From the IMG/VR virus record IMGVR_UViG_3300021093_000236, positions 1 to 32,335 of that record: DNA of 32,335 nt; one strand, given 5' to 3'. How positions within the stretch are numbered: the stretch's first letter is position 1; each line of letters starts with the position of its first letter. Below the pieces are notes generated by a model. That model saw only the letters and a program-made list of their open reading frames with translations. It searched no databases and was not told the DNA's origin. This document shows, piece by piece, positions 22,865 to 31,872 of this stretch. The stretch is from a virus. The position numbers and the translations under genes were made by a program.

Positions 22865-24493
22865 TCAGTCGGGCAGTCGCCCGGTCGTTGCAAGAATCGC
22901 CTTCTCGACGGCGACCTTCGTCACTTCATCGACGAAGGCGCGGAGCGCCTGCGGCGAAGCGAAGTCAGAGTGCCAGCCCTTCGATTCATTGGGAAGTGCA
23001 GCGGCAGCGGCGGCGCTTTCCTCCGCGCTCGCGGCGTCCTCCTTGTCCATCGCTTCGACGAGCTTCGCCGACCACGGCACCGCAGGGTCGCCGCCCCAGA
23101 GCGCCCACGCGACGCGACCGGGCGACGGGTAGCCGTCGTCGCCGGGCTTCGCGCCTTCGGCGTCGAGGTCGACGGCGTGACGCGCGAGCCACGCGCTCAT
23201 CTTGCGCGCCTTGTCGGGAGTGATCGGGTCGCCCGCCGCAAGCTTCTTCGCCCACGCGATCGTCTCCTCGACAAGGCCGTCGCCGCCCTTGCCCTCGTCG
23301 TACCACTCGACGCCCTTCGCGCACTCCTCGCGTACGCCGTCGGGCGGCGAGAAGTCGATCGACTCGTACGCCTTCGCCGACTTCGTGTGCGCGCCAAGGA
23401 ACGCGGCAGCGTCGTCGACGTGTCCGCAGTTCGGACAGACGAGCTTGCCCGCCTCCTCGGCGGGCTTGAACTCGTCAGGCTCGCCGGAGTAGCCGCACGA
23501 CGGGCAGGCGTTCATCGGCTTCGTCGTCGTCTCCGAGAAGCCCATCACCGGCTCGCCCTCGCCCGACTCTGGCTCCGCGACCGGCTCGCCTTCGGCGGAC
23601 GGCGCTTCGTTCTCGCCGACACATACCTCTACACTGATCTCGATCGGTGGCATCTCGGCGAGCTTCACGTCAAGGCCGCCGACGCCGCCGACTTCGAACA
23701 CGAGCGACGAACGCTTCCCGATCTTCGCCATGCGCTCGACGGTCGCGCGCGGCAGGACGACGACGCGATCGCCTTCGTCGGCAAGCACGCGCTCCGCCCA
23801 CGCGCGAACGACGGCGAGGTCGGCGCTGCCGATTGACTTCGCGTCGACGAGCGCCTCGGGGTTCGCGGGGATCGGGACGGCGGAGAACTCAAGCAGCTTC
23901 GACTTCACGAAGTCGAGCGGCGGCTGAAGACGCGACCACGCGTCGTCGGGGTTGATTCGATCTTCGGCGACGCGCACATCGACGGGCATGAAGCCGACGG
24001 AGCCGGCCGAAAGGAAGCCGCCCTTGACGAGACGACCGACGGTCGCGCCGAACGCGTACACGCTCTCCGGCGTGAACTTGAACGTGCCGCGCAGAGCGCC
24101 AGCGACGACGGCGGCACCGAGCGCCTTGCCGACCGGCGGCGAGTTCGCGTCGTGACCGAAGAGCATGACGGGGTTCGAGCGGAACTCGGAGAGGTCCCAT
24201 CCGGTCTGGTCGATGCGGTCGCCGGGTCGATCGACGACGTCGGTGCTCATCGTGTACGTCGCGACGACGTCGCCAGCGTCGACGCCGTCGAGTGCGCGCT
24301 CGACATCGACGTCGGGCATCTCGATCTCGCGGAGCATCCGCGCGACGGCGTCGACGTTCGCGCGCTTCGCGGCGACCTCGACGACGGCGGGAGCGACGAC
24401 GAGCGGAGTCATGGCAACGCCCGCGTCGAGGCGAGCGTCGTTCCTCTTCTCGACGAAGGCGGACTTCCACGCCTTCAGGTTCAGCAGCTTCAT
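22865..24493 (-). CDS. HK97-type prohead protease with C-terminal zinc ribbon and extra domain
   Basis: 542 residues from ATG 24493, supported by AAGGAG eight bases upstream. Protease core at about 75-215: STDVVDRPGDRIDQTGWDLS, NPVMLFGHDANSPPVGKALG with H114, GGFLSAGSVGFMPVDV with S165, and LLEFSAVPIPANPEAL. It cleaves capsid and scaffold during maturation. Unlike the usual ~200-residue enzymes, it has a long C-terminus: a four-Cys zinc ribbon (CPSC 330-333, CPNC 353-356), then a domain at 381-477 (PPDGVREECAKGVEWYDEGK; ITPDKARKMSAWLARHAVDL; PSPGRVAWALWGGDP), then an Ala/Glu-rich helix that may act as internal scaffold. The function of the extra domain is not known to me. Confidence 0.9.
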   Translation of the reverse strand: MKLLNLKAWKSAFVEKRNDARLDAGVAMTPLVVAPAVVEVAAKRANVDAVARMLREIEMPDVDVERALDGVDAGDVVATYTMSTDVVDRPGDRIDQTGWDLSEFRSNPVMLFGHDANSPPVGKALGAAVVAGALRGTFKFTPESVYAFGATVGRLVKGGFLSAGSVGFMPVDVRVAEDRINPDDAWSRLQPPLDFVKSKLLEFSAVPIPANPEALVDAKSIGSADLAVVRAWAERVLADEGDRVVVLPRATVERMAKIGKRSSLVFEVGGVGGLDVKLAEMPPIEISVEVCVGENEAPSAEGEPVAEPESGEGEPVMGFSETTTKPMNACPSCGYSGEPDEFKPAEEAGKLVCPNCGHVDDAAAFLGAHTKSAKAYESIDFSPPDGVREECAKGVEWYDEGKGGDGLVEETIAWAKKLAAGDPITPDKARKMSAWLARHAVDLDAEGAKPGDDGYPSPGRVAWALWGGDPAVPWSAKLVEAMDKEDAASAEESAAAAAALPNESKGWHSDFASPQALRAFVDEVTKVAVEKAILATTGRLPD

Positions 24494-24522
24494 CGGTCTT
24501 TCTCCTTGCGTCGATCGACGCC

Positions 24523-26922
24523 TCACAACTTGGCGAGCGCGTCGAGTACGGCGCGCTCTTGTTCACGGAACCCGGCGGACAGGGACTTGGAGTAGCGCGC
24601 GTCCCACGCCTGCGCCTTGCGATCGAGCGCACGCCACACCGACTCGCGCTCGTCCTTCGTCATCGTCGACACGACGACCTCGCCGTTGCGGTACGCGCTC
24701 GCCGGCACGACGGAGTCGTCCTCGACGACGAGCGACGGAGCGATGGCGCAGCGGCAGTTGATGTCGAGCGCGCCGATGCCGAAGCCGCCGGGGTACATCG
24801 TGCGCGCGCCGGAGTACCTGCCGATCGTACACTCGAAGGGCTTGTCGAGGTCGCGCCGCTGCTCGTCCATCGCGCGGTGTTCGTCGCGCGCGCGACCGTC
24901 CATCGTCGACAGCCACTCGTTCTGCATGACGACGCCCGACTGCGTCATCGCTTCCTTCGTCGCGAACATCGACGATCGGCGCACCTCCGTCTCGGCGATG
25001 ATGTCGCTGCGCTCGATCTCCGCGCGCGTGAACACCGCGCGCACCGCCTCCGCCGGGTCCTCGTCGTTCTCGATCGATGCCTCGATCGCCGTCTTCAGTT
25101 CGGCCTTCGTCGTCGTGTTGACGAGGCGACCGAGTCGGTCGGTGACGTACTCGCGCAGGTGCGCCTTCACGTTCGGGTCGTTCAGGTCGAACGGCTGACG
25201 GTCGAAGCCGGTCGTCGCGCTTTCGACGGACTTCAGCGTGTCGTTGCCCCACGCCTCGACGAGTTGACGGACGAGCGGTTCGAGGCGCTTGCCGAGCGCG
25301 TCGACGTTGACGGCTTCGAGGAGCGCGTCGATCTGCGCCTTCGAGATCGAGCGGCGCACGCGCGGCAGCGAACGGCGCGCGCGCTCGACGGCGGCGGTGT
25401 TCGCCATCTGCGCTTCGGGAGGCAGCGGCGACGCGGAATCGGGCGACGAGAGCAGCATGTTCGGGTCGACGTACATGCCGACGGCGCGATCGCCGCCCCA
25501 CGTTTCCGTCGACGGCGGCAGACCGAGACTCGTTCGCACTTCGTTGTTCGTGAGCACACCGGCGGAGAGGTGGTATCCGAAGATCGGGTTCGTCGCCGAC
25601 TTCGATAGATCGAGGGTGTACTGCTTCCCGCCCGTCATCATGAACGCGTTGCCCTTGCCGTCGGGCAGCGGGTCCATCTCGGCGAGCGCGCGAATCTCGT
25701 CGATGGTGAACATCTCCGAGAACGCCTGCATCGTGCGTAGCTTGTACTCGCGGTCGCCGGGGACGGGCGACTCGTAGTCGAGGATCAGTCGTTGATCGAA
25801 GCGATCGACGAGCTTGTTCTGAAGTTCGGCGCGCCAGAGTTCCGCGCGCGGAACGAGGACGTCGTTTGCGAAGATGAACTGCGCCGACTCCGACGTCGAG
25901 CGGTTCGAGTTCTCGATGATGCCGAGCTTCTCCGGCGGAACGCCGAACACCTGCACAATGGTGTTCCGCTCGAAGGAGCGGATCTCGATCAGCGCCATGT
26001 CTTTGAACGCGGTGTCGAGTCGCTTGACGTCGAGCTTCGCCCCGGTCCAGTGCGTGCGGTACGCCTTCGCGAACCCGCGCGTGGCGTTGTCCCATCGGCG
26101 CTTCGCTTCTTCGAGGAGGGGCCGCGACGCGCCTTCGAGCGAGATGAGCATGTCGGGCATGCCCTTGTTGTGGAACCACGTCGCGACGTGCTTCGCGGCG
26201 AACTCGTCGATGTCGAGTTCGTCGGCAAGCGCGATGCCGGTGCCGACTCCGCGACCATAGGGATCGGCGGGGTTCTGGTCGCGGATGACGAGCATGTTCT
26301 CGATCGGCACGTCGAACGAACCGCCGTCGACCTCGACGCGGAAGACGGGGTTTGTCTCCGTCGGAACCTGCTTCACCCACGTCGGCGGGATCGGCCACAT
26401 CCGCACCGGCATCCCGGCGGGGTTCGTGTCGAGGACGATGTACGTCTCGCCGAGAAGGTCGAGGTGGACCTGACACACCTGTCGGAACGCGCGCCCCGAC
26501 ATGAGCGGGTTCGGCTTGTCGAGGAGAACCTGAAGCGGGTGCTCGTCGAGCAGCACGAGGTCGCCCGAGACGCGCGCCTTGCGGACGAGCGCGGGGCGCA
26601 AGGCGGGCGGCGCGGAGCGGAGGACGTTGTCGGCGACGTACTTCGTCGAGCCGTCGGCGGCGCGCGACTGCCGGGCGTAGACCTTCCACTCGATCGAGGC
26701 GAACGACGACGCGATCTTGTGCGTCGTCGCGCGGAGCCACGGCGAGGACTTGAACAGGTCGAGGAGTTCGTACGACCCGCGCGGCGGCGGTGCGCTCTGC
26801 TTGTAGACGCCGCCCGAGACGTGGCCGGGCATGAGCGTGTCATCGATCCCCATCGTCACGACGCCGTCAGATGTCGGCGTCACGGAAGCGGAACGGCGGA
26901 AGAGCGTGTCGAGGAAACCCAT
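24523..26922 (-). CDS. Portal protein fused to Mu gpF-like minor head protein
   Basis: 799 residues. Residues about 50-420 are a HK97/SPP1-type portal (SSPWLRATTHKIASSFASIE, SGRAFRQVCQVHLDLLGETY, RDQNPADPYGRGVGTGIALA, QVFGVPPEKLGIIEN), forming the DNA-entry ring. Residues about 580-730 are a Mu gpF-like domain: FTRAEIERSDIIAETEVRRS, then MQNEWLSTMDGRARDEH (H682) and INCRCAIAP (722-725). Such domains are normally a separate minor head protein, so this is a natural fusion. ATG 26922 lies in a hairpin loop and has no ribosome site. The next gene is the protease, as expected. Confidence 0.92.
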   Translation of the reverse strand: MGFLDTLFRRSASVTPTSDGVVTMGIDDTLMPGHVSGGVYKQSAPPPRGSYELLDLFKSSPWLRATTHKIASSFASIEWKVYARQSRAADGSTKYVADNVLRSAPPALRPALVRKARVSGDLVLLDEHPLQVLLDKPNPLMSGRAFRQVCQVHLDLLGETYIVLDTNPAGMPVRMWPIPPTWVKQVPTETNPVFRVEVDGGSFDVPIENMLVIRDQNPADPYGRGVGTGIALADELDIDEFAAKHVATWFHNKGMPDMLISLEGASRPLLEEAKRRWDNATRGFAKAYRTHWTGAKLDVKRLDTAFKDMALIEIRSFERNTIVQVFGVPPEKLGIIENSNRSTSESAQFIFANDVLVPRAELWRAELQNKLVDRFDQRLILDYESPVPGDREYKLRTMQAFSEMFTIDEIRALAEMDPLPDGKGNAFMMTGGKQYTLDLSKSATNPIFGYHLSAGVLTNNEVRTSLGLPPSTETWGGDRAVGMYVDPNMLLSSPDSASPLPPEAQMANTAAVERARRSLPRVRRSISKAQIDALLEAVNVDALGKRLEPLVRQLVEAWGNDTLKSVESATTGFDRQPFDLNDPNVKAHLREYVTDRLGRLVNTTTKAELKTAIEASIENDEDPAEAVRAVFTRAEIERSDIIAETEVRRSSMFATKEAMTQSGVVMQNEWLSTMDGRARDEHRAMDEQRRDLDKPFECTIGRYSGARTMYPGGFGIGALDINCRCAIAPSLVVEDDSVVPASAYRNGEVVVSTMTKDERESVWRALDRKAQAWDARYSKSLSAGFREQERAVLDALAKL

Positions 26923-26946: not shown

Positions 26947-27285
26947 CTATCCGGGAAGCCCGCCGTCTTGCACGCGGACGTGAAACGCGCCGTCGGTCGG
27001 CACCGTCTGCGTCTTCGACAACGGCCACGCGATCACGAACTCGGCGAGGTAGTCGCCTACCTCGTTAGTGTCGCCCGCCGTCCAGTCGTAGCGCACGGTG
27101 CCCGATGCTGGCGTGACGACGACGGCGGCGGTGTTCACCTTGTACGCTCCGCCAGAGACGCGTTGTTTCCACATGCGGAACGTCACACCGAGCGCGGTCG
27201 TCAAGTCGACAACGGCGCCGTCGCTCTCGTTCTTGATCGTGGCCTCCAACGACGGGAGCCGGTCGCCTTGCTTGATCACGAACAC
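26947..27285 (-). CDS. BppU N-terminal-like baseplate/fibre adaptor protein
   Basis: 112 residues. The pattern IKQGDRLPSLEATIKNESDG, VVDLTTALGVTFRMW, SGTVRYDWTAGDTNEVGDYL and TDGAFHVRVQD matches the small beta-sandwich at the start of phage baseplate upper proteins (BppU), here as a stand-alone domain. AGGAGG at 27290-27295 could serve GTG 27285 (4 bases away) or the inner GTG 27279 (10 bases), so two residues at the N-terminus are uncertain. Likely an adaptor of a receptor-binding structure. Confidence 0.75.
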   Translation of the reverse strand: MFVIKQGDRLPSLEATIKNESDGAVVDLTTALGVTFRMWKQRVSGGAYKVNTAAVVVTPASGTVRYDWTAGDTNEVGDYLAEFVIAWPLSKTQTVPTDGAFHVRVQDGGLPG

Positions 27286-27293
27286 AACACCTC

Positions 27294-27575
27294 CTATGCG
27301 ACGACGAGCGCCGACGAGACAAGATCGACCACGAGGGACGACGACGCAACGGCTGGCCCCACTGCGGTCGAAGCAACCTCGACGACGACGGTGGACGAGA
27401 CGAGTGCGACGGCGACGGACGAGTCGACAAGTTCCACGTCCGCCTTGTTTCCGCCGACGAAGTCTACGAAGTGCGTCAGCGACCCGGCGACGACACCGCC
27501 GGCAACGATGCCGCCGGCAACGGGCAACCAGAAGTAGCCGTCGACGAACGTCGTTGCTCCGGAGTCATGTTGCAA
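27294..27575 (-). CDS. Hydrophobic protein with 9-residue repeats
   Basis: 93 residues from TTG 27575, with AAGGA about six bases upstream; no ATG exists in this frame nearby, so the start is a judgement. A hydrophobic segment (YFWLPVAGGIVAGGVVAGSL, residues about 14-33) is followed by imperfect 9-residue repeats: VAVALVSST, VVVEVASTA, VGPAVASSS, LVVDLVSSA, LVVA. The alternation suggests short beta strands, perhaps a solenoid or fibre. It sits 3 bases from the stop of a membrane protein gene. No family recognised. Confidence 0.6.
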   Translation of the reverse strand: MQHDSGATTFVDGYFWLPVAGGIVAGGVVAGSLTHFVDFVGGNKADVELVDSSVAVALVSSTVVVEVASTAVGPAVASSSLVVDLVSSALVVA

Positions 27576-27577
27576 GC

Positions 27578-27898
27578 CTAGTCCTTCTGCGGGGGCAGAG
27601 CGATCCTCTCCGCCGCTTGCGACGCCGCGTCGACAAGGTAGCAGAACGCTGACGAGGCGAACGCCCATGCGAGCGAATGCGTTGCGGCGGCAACGCTTGC
27701 CTCGACGCCGTAGATTGGTCTTGTCATCAGCCAAGCCAACCAGCCGCAGTGGAAACCCGAGCAGTATGAGCAGGTCAGCATGCGCGTGAAGAACGCGCCC
27801 AACGGCCACTGATGCGAGCGCAGGACCTCGACCTTGTTCTGTAGACCGAAGCAGACGCCGTAGGCGATGAGCAGGTCAATGATGGTGGGCACGGTCAT
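27578..27898 (-). CDS. DUF1360-like membrane protein with CxxC motif
   Basis: 106 residues from ATG 27898, which overlaps the upstream stop (ATGA). The protein has N-terminal, central and C-terminal hydrophobic segments (IIDLLIAYGVCFGL, about 5-18; GWLAWLM, 52-58; SLAWAFASSAFCYLVDAA, 75-92). Between them is the motif TCSYCSGFHCGW (42-53), which I recognise as the DUF1360-type CxxCxGFxxG signature. Function of the family is unknown; it is common in phage genomes near tail or lysis genes. Coupled to the EF-hand-like protein upstream. Confidence 0.72.
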   Translation of the reverse strand: MTVPTIIDLLIAYGVCFGLQNKVEVLRSHQWPLGAFFTRMLTCSYCSGFHCGWLAWLMTRPIYGVEASVAAATHSLAWAFASSAFCYLVDAASQAAERIALPPQKD

Positions 27899-28200
27899 GC
27901 CTTTCGACGGGGGGAAACGTACTGACGCGGGGCGCGCGACGAGTCCGAGGGCACGATACGGCAGCACGACGTCTCGGCGGCTTGCTTGAAAATCTCGACG
28001 GTGTCGGGGACGCCGTCGCTGTTGCAGTCGAATCCGAGGTCGAGCTTGTGCGTGTTGAGCGCCGCCACGATCATATCGCGTTCAGCGGCGAGTTGTTCGG
28101 GCACCTTGGAGTAGCCGTTTCGGCGCATCATCTCGACGTGCATGAGTCGCTGGATGGCTTCGCCGAGGCCCATCTGCATGGTCTTGTTTACGTCGGTCAC
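27895..28200 (-). CDS. Small protein with EF-hand-like calcium-binding loop
   Basis: 101 residues from GTG 28200, with GGAGG five bases upstream. The N-terminal half is helical (LGEAIQRLMHVEMMRRNGYS, EQLAAERDMIVAALNTHKLD). Residues 58-69 read DCNSDGVPDTVE, an exact EF-hand or dockerin-type pattern with oxygen ligands at positions 1, 3, 5, 9 and 12, followed by a helix and a vicinal pair SCC. The C-terminus is basic. It is the first gene after a terminator and is translationally coupled to the membrane protein. Calcium binding is inferred, not shown. Confidence 0.72.
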   Translation of the reverse strand: MTDVNKTMQMGLGEAIQRLMHVEMMRRNGYSKVPEQLAAERDMIVAALNTHKLDLGFDCNSDGVPDTVEIFKQAAETSCCRIVPSDSSRAPRQYVSPRRKA

Positions 28201-28252
28201 GCACGCCTCCGTTGCAACAACACACCGTAGACATCAGTCGGGGAAAAAGGAA

Positions 28253-28286
28253 ACGCCCCCAGTGAGCCACAGCGCACCGGGGGCGT
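28253..28286 (-). terminator. Intrinsic terminator after the fibre-like gene
   Basis: A 12-bp stem (28253-28264 with 28275-28286, one G:U pair) with a 10-base loop, followed on the - strand by TTTCCTTTTTCCCC. It lies about 20 bases after the stop codon of the 433-residue protein and separates the fibre genes from the accessory cassette. Confidence 0.88.
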
Positions 28287-28306
28287 CTCGCCTGTCACGC
28301 CGTCGT

Positions 28307-29608
28307 TCAGAGAACCACGATCGCCTTGGGTTGCCAGAGCACGCTCGCCGCCGCAGCACCGCCGCCGGCCGTGTTCACGGTGACGATGATGCCGAGTTCG
28401 GCGACGACCTCACCGGCCGCCGACGGAGCGACGTTCGTCAGCTTGCCCGCGTTCGCTGCCGACAGGTACACCGCGTCGCCCGCCGCGAGTGAAAGGCTGC
28501 TGTCAAAGTTGCAGTCTGCGATGATGCCGAGGACGTAGACGAAGGAGCCGTCCTTGGCGATGCCCGCCACGCGCGACGTCGACGCCGTCGTCGCAATCGC
28601 GTTGCCTCCTGCCACCGTGGTTGCGTTGCCCGCCGTACCGTTCGCGATAGCGACGAGGGAGTAGTCCGTCGCGGCGGGGATCGTGTACCACGAGACGCCG
28701 CCCTCCTCGTCGCTGTCCGCTTGGAGCACCTGACCGTCGGTGCCCACGCCGACCGCGACGTAGCCCGACGCGGCGCTGCCCGCGAGCAAGTCACCCTTGG
28801 TGACTGCTGCGTTGTCGTACTTCGTGATGCGCCCGTTGCTGTCGATAAGGAGCTTCTCCGCGACGGAGAACAACGTCGTCGGCGCGTTTGTGCCGATGCC
28901 GACGTTCTGCGAGGTCTGACCGTCGACGTAGAGCAGCGGTTGCCCGCCAAACGAAGAACCACGAACTGCGAAGTTAGTGGAGTTGTACCCAAAGTTGACA
29001 ATGACGGAGTCGCCAGTACCACCGGGGTTCAAGTTGATGCTGTTGCTCGACTGCAACGTAATGTCGTCGCCGCCGACGGTAGTCTCGATCGTGAGCGGTG
29101 CGTTGCTGGACAGGGAACCCGCGTTGAAAGAGAGCGCCGCGCTACCTGTGATGCCCGTGCCGTCGCCGATTGCGACATTGGTGTTGCCGACGTTGACGCT
29201 CGGGATGGCGTTGTCGACGTAATCCTTCGTCGCAGCGTCCTGCGCGTCGAACGGATTGGCGAGGTTTGTGATCTTGTAGGTCGCATCGCCGCCCATGTTG
29301 ATGTTGCTGATCACGGTCGTCGCGTCGTCGAACGACACCGTGTCGCCCGCGTCGCCGTTGCCGAACGTGACCGCGCCCTCAAACGTCGCGTCCGTCGTGA
29401 AGGTCGTACCGCCGACCGTCGTGACGTCGCCGGGGATCGACACGGGGATGGTCGCCGAACCGAGCGTGATGCTGGTGGCGGTCGTGCCACCGATGGTGAG
29501 CACGCCTGCGGTTGCCGCGTCGATGCCGACGCCGACGATCAGCGTGTCAGCGTCGGGAATCCGCTGCGTCGTACCGTCAGTGATCACAAGAGACTTGAGG
29601 TTGGCCAT
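28307..29608 (-). CDS. Tail fibre-like structural protein
   Basis: 433 residues, beta-rich and Thr/Ala/Gly-rich. The segment ITNLANPFDAQDAATKDYVD is a typical fibre motif just before a repeat-containing shaft, and QNVGIGTNAPTTLFSV is also fibre-like. A central region has regular short strands (TIGGTTATSITLGSATIPVS). The C-terminal 150 residues form another domain (GNATTVAGGNAIATTASTSR; AAGDAVYLSAANAGKLTNVA). TAGGAG six bases upstream supports ATG 29608. Likely a receptor-binding fibre or appendage, though an internal structural role is possible. Confidence 0.78.
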   Translation of the reverse strand: MANLKSLVITDGTTQRIPDADTLIVGVGIDAATAGVLTIGGTTATSITLGSATIPVSIPGDVTTVGGTTFTTDATFEGAVTFGNGDAGDTVSFDDATTVISNINMGGDATYKITNLANPFDAQDAATKDYVDNAIPSVNVGNTNVAIGDGTGITGSAALSFNAGSLSSNAPLTIETTVGGDDITLQSSNSINLNPGGTGDSVIVNFGYNSTNFAVRGSSFGGQPLLYVDGQTSQNVGIGTNAPTTLFSVAEKLLIDSNGRITKYDNAAVTKGDLLAGSAASGYVAVGVGTDGQVLQADSDEEGGVSWYTIPAATDYSLVAIANGTAGNATTVAGGNAIATTASTSRVAGIAKDGSFVYVLGIIADCNFDSSLSLAAGDAVYLSAANAGKLTNVAPSAAGEVVAELGIIVTVNTAGGGAAAASVLWQPKAIVVL

Positions 29609-29941: not shown

Positions 29942-31681
29942 TCACAAGAGCACAGGGTCGCTGATCTGCACGAGCACCTTCGGGCTGACGCTACCGTCGA
30001 CGAGCACGCCCACTCGCTGAACGACGTCACCAGTCGCAGTAGGAGCCGTCAACGTGATCCGGCCTGCTGTCGTCGCCATCCACACTCGCTGACCTACGTT
30101 TGCCGGAGCGGGCGCTGCGTCGAACAATGCGACCGGAACATCGACAAGACCATCGACTCGAACCGTGACCGTCGCGTTCGCGCCCGCCGCCGCGATGGCA
30201 AAGCCGATCGGGTTGAGACGCTGGAGCATGGCGGTCGCGTTAGCCTTCTGCGTGCGCGGGCTCCCCGCCGCGTTCACGACGCACACAAGGTCGCCCGCGA
30301 CGAGGATCTCCTGCGCTGTGGCTACGATGTCGACTACCGAAGACGACGACGCGCTATCGCCGTCCGTCCACCTACGCGGGCGAAAGTCGACGTGGGTCGC
30401 TCCGATGTCCGTCGACCGGAAACGCGCCTTCGGCGTGTTCTCGTAGGCGCTCGACGCCTGCACGATGACGGAGCCGAGCGCCACGATCTCCGGGAACGGC
30501 AGTCCGGTGAGCGCGTTGATCTCCGTCGTCGCGCCCGCGCGTGCCGCGCTCTGCGTGTCGTACTGCGCGATCCCCTGCACCGCGATGATCGGCGCGGCGA
30601 TGTTGTTCGTGGCGAACAAGTGGAGGACGAAGAACTTGTTCTCGGCGACCTCGACGAGCGACCACGATCCGCCGGTGCCGTCGTTGAACGGCGGACGCCC
30701 GTTCGCGCCGGTGAAGCCCGCCGTGCCCGAGTAGATGAACGGGAACGAGTCGGCGGTCTTGCGTCGCCACGCCGTCGACCCGGAGCGGTAGAACACCGGG
30801 ACGAGCGCGACGGGCGCAAGGTCCTGAGGCGCGCCGTCGACGATGTCGGCGCGGATGTCCTCGTCGTTGAAAAAGCCGTCGGAGACGGACAACTGCGCGT
30901 GCGAGTCCAGCGAGCCAGACCCGTCGACGGTCAGGTTTCCGAGAGCGAGGCCTGCGCCGTACACCGCGCCGCGCGTCGTGTGTTGGTAGGCGTGCGTCGC
31001 CGCGTCCATGACGAGGCCGTGTCGCTCGTCGGCGAGGAAGATCGCGACGTCGTTGACGGCGTCGAAGTAGAGGACCGACACGAAGGCGTGTTGCGTGATG
31101 ATGAGGATCGAGAACGTCTGCGTCGCAACGAGCGCGCCTGTCGTTGAGTCGACGTAGACGTACCAGAGGCCGTCGTCGTCGGTGAGCGTGACGGTGAGCG
31201 CCGACGTGAAGGTGCGCTTGATGCCAGCGAGGAACACGTCGAACGACGATGCGACCGGGGCGAGCGTGAAGACGCGCGTCGATCCGTTGAAGGCGATCGT
31301 CGTGTCCGTTCGGTTCGGGAAGCCGGTCGGCTCCGACGTCGCGACGATGGCGTCACTCGGCGGCTGAAGCATCGAGGCCGGCGCGTCGACGAGGACGTCG
31401 CGCGTGCCGGCGACGAACGGGATCGGTGACGTCGAGCCGGTCGCGTTCGGTCCGCTCGCTGTCTCGATCGCGACGACGACGAGGCGCGGAGGCGAGAGGC
31501 GGAACGTGTACGTCCCGACCTCACTGTCGCCCGTCGCACGGTCGAGGATCGAGACGTTGACGATGTCGCCGTCGACGAAGGCGGAGGCGAGCGTGCGACA
31601 GTTGCGGATCGCTCCGCCGTCGAGCAGTCGATCTCCGATGCCGGTCGTGGACGAGGTCTGCCCGCAGAGGTTCTTGATCAT
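29942..31681 (-). CDS. Large fibre/appendage-like structural protein
   Basis: 579 residues from ATG 31681. It is beta-rich with regular strand blocks (DIVNVSILDRATGDSEVGTY, TRVFTLAPVASSFDVFLAGI, DDDGLWYVYVDSTTGALVAT) and the compact pattern AQLSVSDGFFNDEDIRADIV. A C-terminal domain (VDVPVALFDAAPAPANVGQR, ITLTAPTATGDVVQRVGVLV) resembles fibre or whisker caps. It is the first late gene in the window and lies upstream of another fibre-like protein, so a host-binding appendage is the best guess. The start has no ribosome binding site; a GC hairpin sits just before it, so the N-terminus is less certain than the rest. Confidence 0.78.
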   Translation of the reverse strand: MIKNLCGQTSSTTGIGDRLLDGGAIRNCRTLASAFVDGDIVNVSILDRATGDSEVGTYTFRLSPPRLVVVAIETASGPNATGSTSPIPFVAGTRDVLVDAPASMLQPPSDAIVATSEPTGFPNRTDTTIAFNGSTRVFTLAPVASSFDVFLAGIKRTFTSALTVTLTDDDGLWYVYVDSTTGALVATQTFSILIITQHAFVSVLYFDAVNDVAIFLADERHGLVMDAATHAYQHTTRGAVYGAGLALGNLTVDGSGSLDSHAQLSVSDGFFNDEDIRADIVDGAPQDLAPVALVPVFYRSGSTAWRRKTADSFPFIYSGTAGFTGANGRPPFNDGTGGSWSLVEVAENKFFVLHLFATNNIAAPIIAVQGIAQYDTQSAARAGATTEINALTGLPFPEIVALGSVIVQASSAYENTPKARFRSTDIGATHVDFRPRRWTDGDSASSSSVVDIVATAQEILVAGDLVCVVNAAGSPRTQKANATAMLQRLNPIGFAIAAAGANATVTVRVDGLVDVPVALFDAAPAPANVGQRVWMATTAGRITLTAPTATGDVVQRVGVLVDGSVSPKVLVQISDPVLL

Positions 31682-31872
31682 GCGCGGAGCGTAGCCGCGC
31701 GCGGACGCTTGCGGAACGAACGAACGAGGCGCACCCTGCGAGTCTCGGTGAAGAAGTGGAAGGCAAGTCCACAGACGGCACCGGGGCGCGGGCGGCATGG
31801 TGCCGCTCGCGTCGTTTGCGGCGGACCGTTGACGCTCCGCGCGCGGCACGCCCACGATGGCGCGTCAGGCAT
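31678..31872 (-). CDS. Possible small protein upstream of the 579-aa protein
   Basis: 64 residues if ATG 31872 is used; the frame stays open to about 32019. Its TGA overlaps the next ATG (ATGA), the same junction style used elsewhere, and the C-terminus reads VCGLAFHFFTETRRVRLVRS. Against it: composition is Arg/Ala/Pro-rich like a shadow frame and no ribosome site is clear. Kept only as a weak candidate. Confidence 0.2.
   Translation of the reverse strand: MPDAPSWACRARSVNGPPQTTRAAPCRPRPGAVCGLAFHFFTETRRVRLVRSFRKRPRAATLRA
31682..31700. other. GC-rich hairpin directly before the 579-aa protein start
   Basis: GCGCGG (31682-31687) pairs with CCGCGC (31695-31700) around a 7-base loop. It ends right at the ATG of the large fibre-like gene. 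No Shine-Dalgarno sequence is present, resembling the situation at the portal gene. Confidence 0.4.

Follow-up and report, generated by a model that had tools for sequence, protein, structure and literature searches.

Two adjacent small genes, A and B, form an obligate pair that marks a diverse group of uncultured phages and is represented here in the window, a viral DNA of 32,335 nt (positions 1 to 32,335 of IMG/VR record IMGVR_UViG_3300021093_000236). B is a small membrane protein that is best called a remote clade of DUF1360, and these relatives of DUF1360 in large uncultured phages are paired with a conserved cysteine-bearing partner, the product of gene A. Neither the A family nor the A-B pair seems to have been described before, there being no matching database families. 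Our tentative reading, held at somewhat less than even confidence, is that A and B constitute a late inner-membrane docking site or chaperone complex for virion assembly.

An earlier note on this DNA had described four tightly spaced genes between a terminator and the portal gene, and the gene order, spacing and terminator are all as it described (Table 1). A and B overlap by 4 bases (ATGA), B and C are separated by 2 bases, and C and D by 8. GC3 is 0.79–0.87 for A, B, C and D and the codon-position GC pattern matches that of the neighbouring genes, which supports the assignment of all four as coding. The hairpin of the terminator upstream of A has a folding energy of -34.7 kcal/mol (z -3.55), with a U-rich run after it; a simple terminator scan of the window did not report it. 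The first large gene downstream is identified as a portal-MuF fusion by matches to PF04860 (E 1.5e-46) and PF04233 (E 9.8e-8) in a Pfam profile search of the window. Beyond it, the gene at 22865-24526 encodes a prohead protease-like protein with an S78 match slightly below the cut-off and a Cys-rich, zinc-ribbon-like insert at around residues 334-373. Gene X lies outside the four-gene interval (26947-28200), with the terminator between it and A, and a second X-type gene is located upstream of X at 29942-31855, its 637-aa product having a C-terminal Phage_cement_2 match just above the cut-off.

Table 1. Coordinates of genes, motifs and signals at the A-B locus of the window.
Feature	Coordinates	Strand	Description
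Gene X	28307..29608	-	Fibre-like repeat protein, 433 aa; conserved C-terminal domain resembling stand-alone cement-like proteins
Intrinsic terminator between X and A	28243..28289	-	Hairpin 28250-28289 and U-rich tail
Gene A	27895..28200	-	GTG start, 101 aa, predicted soluble; EF-hand-like loop, three invariant Cys, basic C-terminal tail
EF-hand-like loop of A	27994..28029	-	Residues 58-69, DCNSDGVPDTVE
CCR motif of A	27958..27966	-	Residues 79-81; 100% in 26 members
Gene B	27578..27898	-	ATG start, 106 aa; membrane protein, remote DUF1360 clade, three membrane helices
CxYCxGFH motif of B	27749..27772	-	Residues 43-50; probable cytosolic end of helix 2
Gene C	27294..27575	-	TTG start, 93 aa; predicted membrane segment and five 9-residue repeats
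Gene D	26947..27285	-	GTG start, 112 aa; weak BppU_N similarity; membership in the unit not supported
Portal-MuF fusion gene	24523..26922	-	First large gene after A-B-C-D

Both proteins were searched against uncultured viral contigs, and A also against GTDB genomes, which yielded 43 A loci, 31 of them non-redundant, on contigs of uncultured tailed phages with lengths of up to 308 kb. With the start of B set at its conserved N-terminus wherever the longest open frame began earlier, B directly follows A on the same strand, at a spacing of -4 to +20 bases, in every one of the 30 non-redundant loci whose contig continues past A. One contig (L061) matches the window at 99.9% identity across 12.7 kb and does not count as independent evidence. 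B is present in a single copy in all 14 contigs tested, and both genes are under purifying selection (pN/pS 0.06–0.48 for A). Five contigs encode B without A, and a run that lacked a positive control found no A elsewhere in them. In the GTDB genomes A is confined to three MAG contigs, which we read as stray phage contigs. INPHARED contains no close relatives of either protein, and B has only weak matches there, including a DUF1360-type protein of phage phiSAJS1. No known defence or anti-defence family was matched above noise by the pair in PADLOC, NCBIfam or Pfam.

The suggestion that this region holds a linked, undescribed membrane-related system thus stands for A and B, and fails for the four-gene extent, as relatives carry other genes in place of C and D. 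The next relative (L002/L062), for example, lacks C and has a different membrane-type gene after B. Co-occurrence of the first three genes in other phages, which had been put forward as a check, is strong for the A-B linkage and does not extend to C, and we have discarded the notion of A-B-C-D as a single system. The 9-residue repeats reported for C are nonetheless real, the periodicity giving an identity of 0.39 vs 0.18 for shuffles (p 0.001); a tandem DNA repeat was considered as its origin and rejected, only weak short-period arrays being present. The BppU-like domain ascribed to D is a similarity that falls short of the BppU_N cut-off (E 0.0016; 18.6 bits vs 23.1 bits). Kinship of D with the Ig-like proteins encoded downstream of B in some relatives was likewise rejected (hhalign probability 0.1).

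Members of the A family share 38–79% identity with the window protein, and their invariant residues include G11, G13, R18, E40, A47, C59, F71, C79, C80 and R81. The calcium-binding-like loop that the earlier note had recognised is borne out, with DCNSDGVPDTVE filling EF-hand loop positions 1, 3, 5, 6, 9 and 12, and the pattern (acidic or polar ligands at positions 1, 3, 5, 9 and 12, and Gly at 6) is present in most other members as well; D58, D62 and D66 are conserved in 96%, 92% and 96% of a 26-member alignment, respectively. The DxDxDGxxDxxE pattern is shared with EF-hand and thrombospondin type 3 calcium loops, from which A differs in having a single loop that is flanked by invariant Cys residues and is lost in three of the 26 members (L028, L036 and L046). 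Because these three lack the loop, calcium binding by A may not be essential, and in them the three Cys residues are still invariant. The tail beyond the CCR motif is strongly basic in most members. A has no match above threshold in Pfam, PHROGs, NCBIfam, PADLOC or PDB sequences, and no Pfam EF-hand or TSP3 match; its AF2 model is of low confidence (pLDDT 71, and about 60 in the loop).

The AF2 model of B has a pLDDT of 93 and a pTM of 0.79, and its elements are arranged as a first membrane helix, a loop containing 3.6 Lys/Arg residues on average, the CxYCxGFH motif opening helix 2, a long helix 3, and a C-terminal tail that is mostly acidic. C43, Y45, C46, G48 and H50 are invariant among 27 members. 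By the positive-inside rule, B would have an N-out/C-in topology. The window protein has no direct PF07098 match, and the best among the 27 B-family members (E 0.036) is below the Pfam curated cut-off. However, alignment of the B family to 19 actinophage DUF1360-type proteins gives an hhalign probability of 94% (E 9.8e-8) over the CxxC region, and a BFVD fold search with B returns a DUF1360 protein as its top match (TM 0.72, probability 1.00, E 4.3e-3). The description of B as a CxxC membrane protein of the DUF1360 type is therefore sustained at the level of profile-profile and fold comparison, and it is on these grounds that we assign B to a remote clade of the family although single sequences miss the Pfam cut-off. 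In common with the actinophage proteins, B is a small multi-helix membrane protein with CxxC and then G at the start of its second helix, encoded in virion-gene surroundings. It differs in motif (CxYCxGFH rather than the CPWCxGxW or similar of most DUF1360 relatives) and in context, being paired with A and, in most loci, beside the fibre gene X, whereas the relatives are beside the portal. PDB sequences gave only noise for B (ZorA, E 0.23), the best VIA-align Z score of 5.4 is within the range expected of helical proteins, and a PDB fold search with the A and B models returned no E below 1.

The association of DUF1360 with portals is apparent from 19 actinophage records, picked for diversity from phages of Mycobacterium, Gordonia, Streptomyces, Arthrobacter, Rhodococcus and Microbacterium. 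In 16 of these the gene directly downstream of the DUF1360-type gene encodes a portal, by annotation or by homology, a count that includes phiSAJS1, in which that gene shares 48% identity with an annotated portal; in Thing3 and Audrey the gene in this place is unnamed and portal-sized, and in ReqiPine5 one small gene intervenes. A DUF1360 profile matches seven of eight of these genomes tested, in the same places, with six matches above the cut-off. The sampled actinophages may owe this adjacency to one ancestral gene order. Among the A-B phages the pair is about 30–49 kb from the portal in the five genomes with a T4-type portal, so that portal adjacency is not general in this group; the presumed portal is 15–19 kb away in two further genomes (read by eye), and no PF04860-type portal was found in the other A-B contigs. 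Portal adjacency is thus a property of DUF1360 in actinophages and, loosely, of the window, in which the order is A-B-C-D-portal. Because mycobacteriophages that have been isolated and are genetically accessible consistently have DUF1360 next to the portal gene, the relationship between portal and membrane can be tested directly. A literature search made largely outside subscription papers found almost no functional literature on DUF1360, with a single paper that mentions the family.

The usual third partner of A-B is the fibre-like X, upstream of A. The X C-terminal profile matches the gene immediately before A in 19 of the 31 non-redundant loci, a gene of at least 500 aa occupies this position in seven more, and five have no large gene there. 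In the L063 group the X-type match is one small gene upstream of A, and in several contigs a stand-alone copy of the X C-terminal domain is a few genes downstream of B (both placed by coordinates).

Pairwise identities among the A proteins rise and fall with those among the B proteins (Mantel r 0.58, p 0.0002), a pattern that shared ancestry alone can produce. The net charge of the A tail and that of the B C-terminus are anticorrelated (Spearman -0.59, p 0.003), and remain so when independent contrasts are used (r -0.50, one-sided p about 0.03). The charge relationship suggests that A may touch B on the cytosolic side.

We favour a docking or chaperone function over superinfection exclusion or lysis, and an assembly role in particular because late virion genes, especially the portal, surround B and its DUF1360 relatives. 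A and B would be made late in infection as one complex, with B in the host inner membrane, turning its C-terminus and CxYCxGFH face towards the cytosol. A would be its soluble, co-translated cytosolic partner, with a metal- or calcium-binding-like loop and three invariant cysteines, and the basic tail of A would meet the acidic C-terminus of B. The complex could then bring a virion component, either the portal/prohead initiator or X, to the membrane during assembly. Such a role would parallel that of gp40, on which T4 relies for a portal initiator bound to the membrane (PMC9958956). Procapsids of both SPP1 and T4 begin at the inner membrane, with a portal-dependent start in SPP1, and a 2026 cryo-tomography study describes the portals of several phages as membrane-associated by an unknown molecular mechanism (PMC13212656). 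The likeness to gp40 would be in proposed role only, as a small membrane-associated helper of portal/prohead initiation: neither A nor B has sequence similarity to T4 gp40, and there is no A-like partner beside T4 gene 40. The gp40 family (PF11113) has no match above the cut-off in 12 A-B genomes, five of which have T4-type portals (the T4 control gives E 4e-30); this is consistent with, and not proof of, A-B acting as a gp40 substitute. A broader proposal, in which A and B together make up a membrane platform where virion assembly starts, possibly under metal or calcium control, and in which DUF1360 is a widespread portal-to-membrane anchor, we consider fairly unlikely as a whole. If true, a DUF1360 anchor would explain how procapsids are tethered to the host membrane in phages without gp40.

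Several other functions are compatible with parts of these data. The pair, or either protein, could instead be carried in the particle, at the portal, neck or fibre vertex, and work on the host membrane as the DNA enters, as might be expected from its constant place among structural genes, the position of DUF1360 beside the portal gene and the linkage to X; a virion that has no membrane would nevertheless be an unusual place for a three-helix membrane protein of this size lacking a soluble domain, and we regard this as unlikely. We give about as little credence to receptor masking or superinfection exclusion, the latter raised in the earlier note together with envelope contact at infection, in which B, with A, would sit in the infected-cell membrane and keep a second phage from adsorbing or delivering its DNA. 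The membrane protein does adjoin a fibre-type gene in most A-B loci, and a parallel exists in phage T5, where llp is encoded beside the receptor-binding protein gene. However, the A and B cores are well conserved in alignments in which X is highly diverse, making exclusion less likely, since a receptor-specific blocker would not be expected to behave in this way. The DUF1360 relatives, moreover, adjoin portal genes rather than fibre or immunity genes, and there is no match in PADLOC, a database that covers this function poorly.

The same conservation of A against a widely varying X bears on the improbable case that A alone is a dedicated assembly chaperone of the fibre, of the Tfa or gp38 kind, and that B, though adjacent, does something else. 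A directly follows X in most loci, and four of the five contigs with B and without A show no X-type domain (two are under 13 kb), the fifth having one about 12 kb from B; yet no A locus whose contig runs on lacks B, and five of 31 loci have no large gene directly upstream of A. A lysis function, with B as a holin or holin regulator and A as a soluble antiholin-like partner, is very doubtful. The size and three membrane helices of B fit a class I holin and the gene position is late, and holin-named proteins do occur among the BFVD matches of B, if only among the insignificant ones (E 2.4 and above). Against this, no endolysin was recognised beside A-B among the neighbour families scanned, the invariant CxYCxGFH is not a holin hallmark, and in a mycobacteriophage that encodes a DUF1360 protein the annotated lysin A and holin are at another site (gp47-48), which makes lysis less likely. 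The docking or chaperone complex thus remains our preferred, if tentative, interpretation.

The neighbours of the pair in other contigs include baseplate wedge, tape measure or major capsid genes. A thymidylate kinase gene (PHROG 761, E 1e-27) is located amid virion genes near B in L044 (4770-5399), and members of its cluster are found in several other contigs. A cluster 17 protein of about 98 residues, which we take to resemble DUF3467, is encoded downstream of B in L030, L069, L070 and L100, and follows B in many loci. Lastly, the Ig-like/connector-type gene downstream of B is split in L006 (6194-8529) and L007 (6480-8800), as read by eye, in the order of an N-terminal part that runs into an intein-like start, a free-standing endonuclease-like frame, an intein-like C-terminal part, and resumption of the gene at SYSIGGVS, an arrangement reminiscent of a split intein with a homing endonuclease between its halves.
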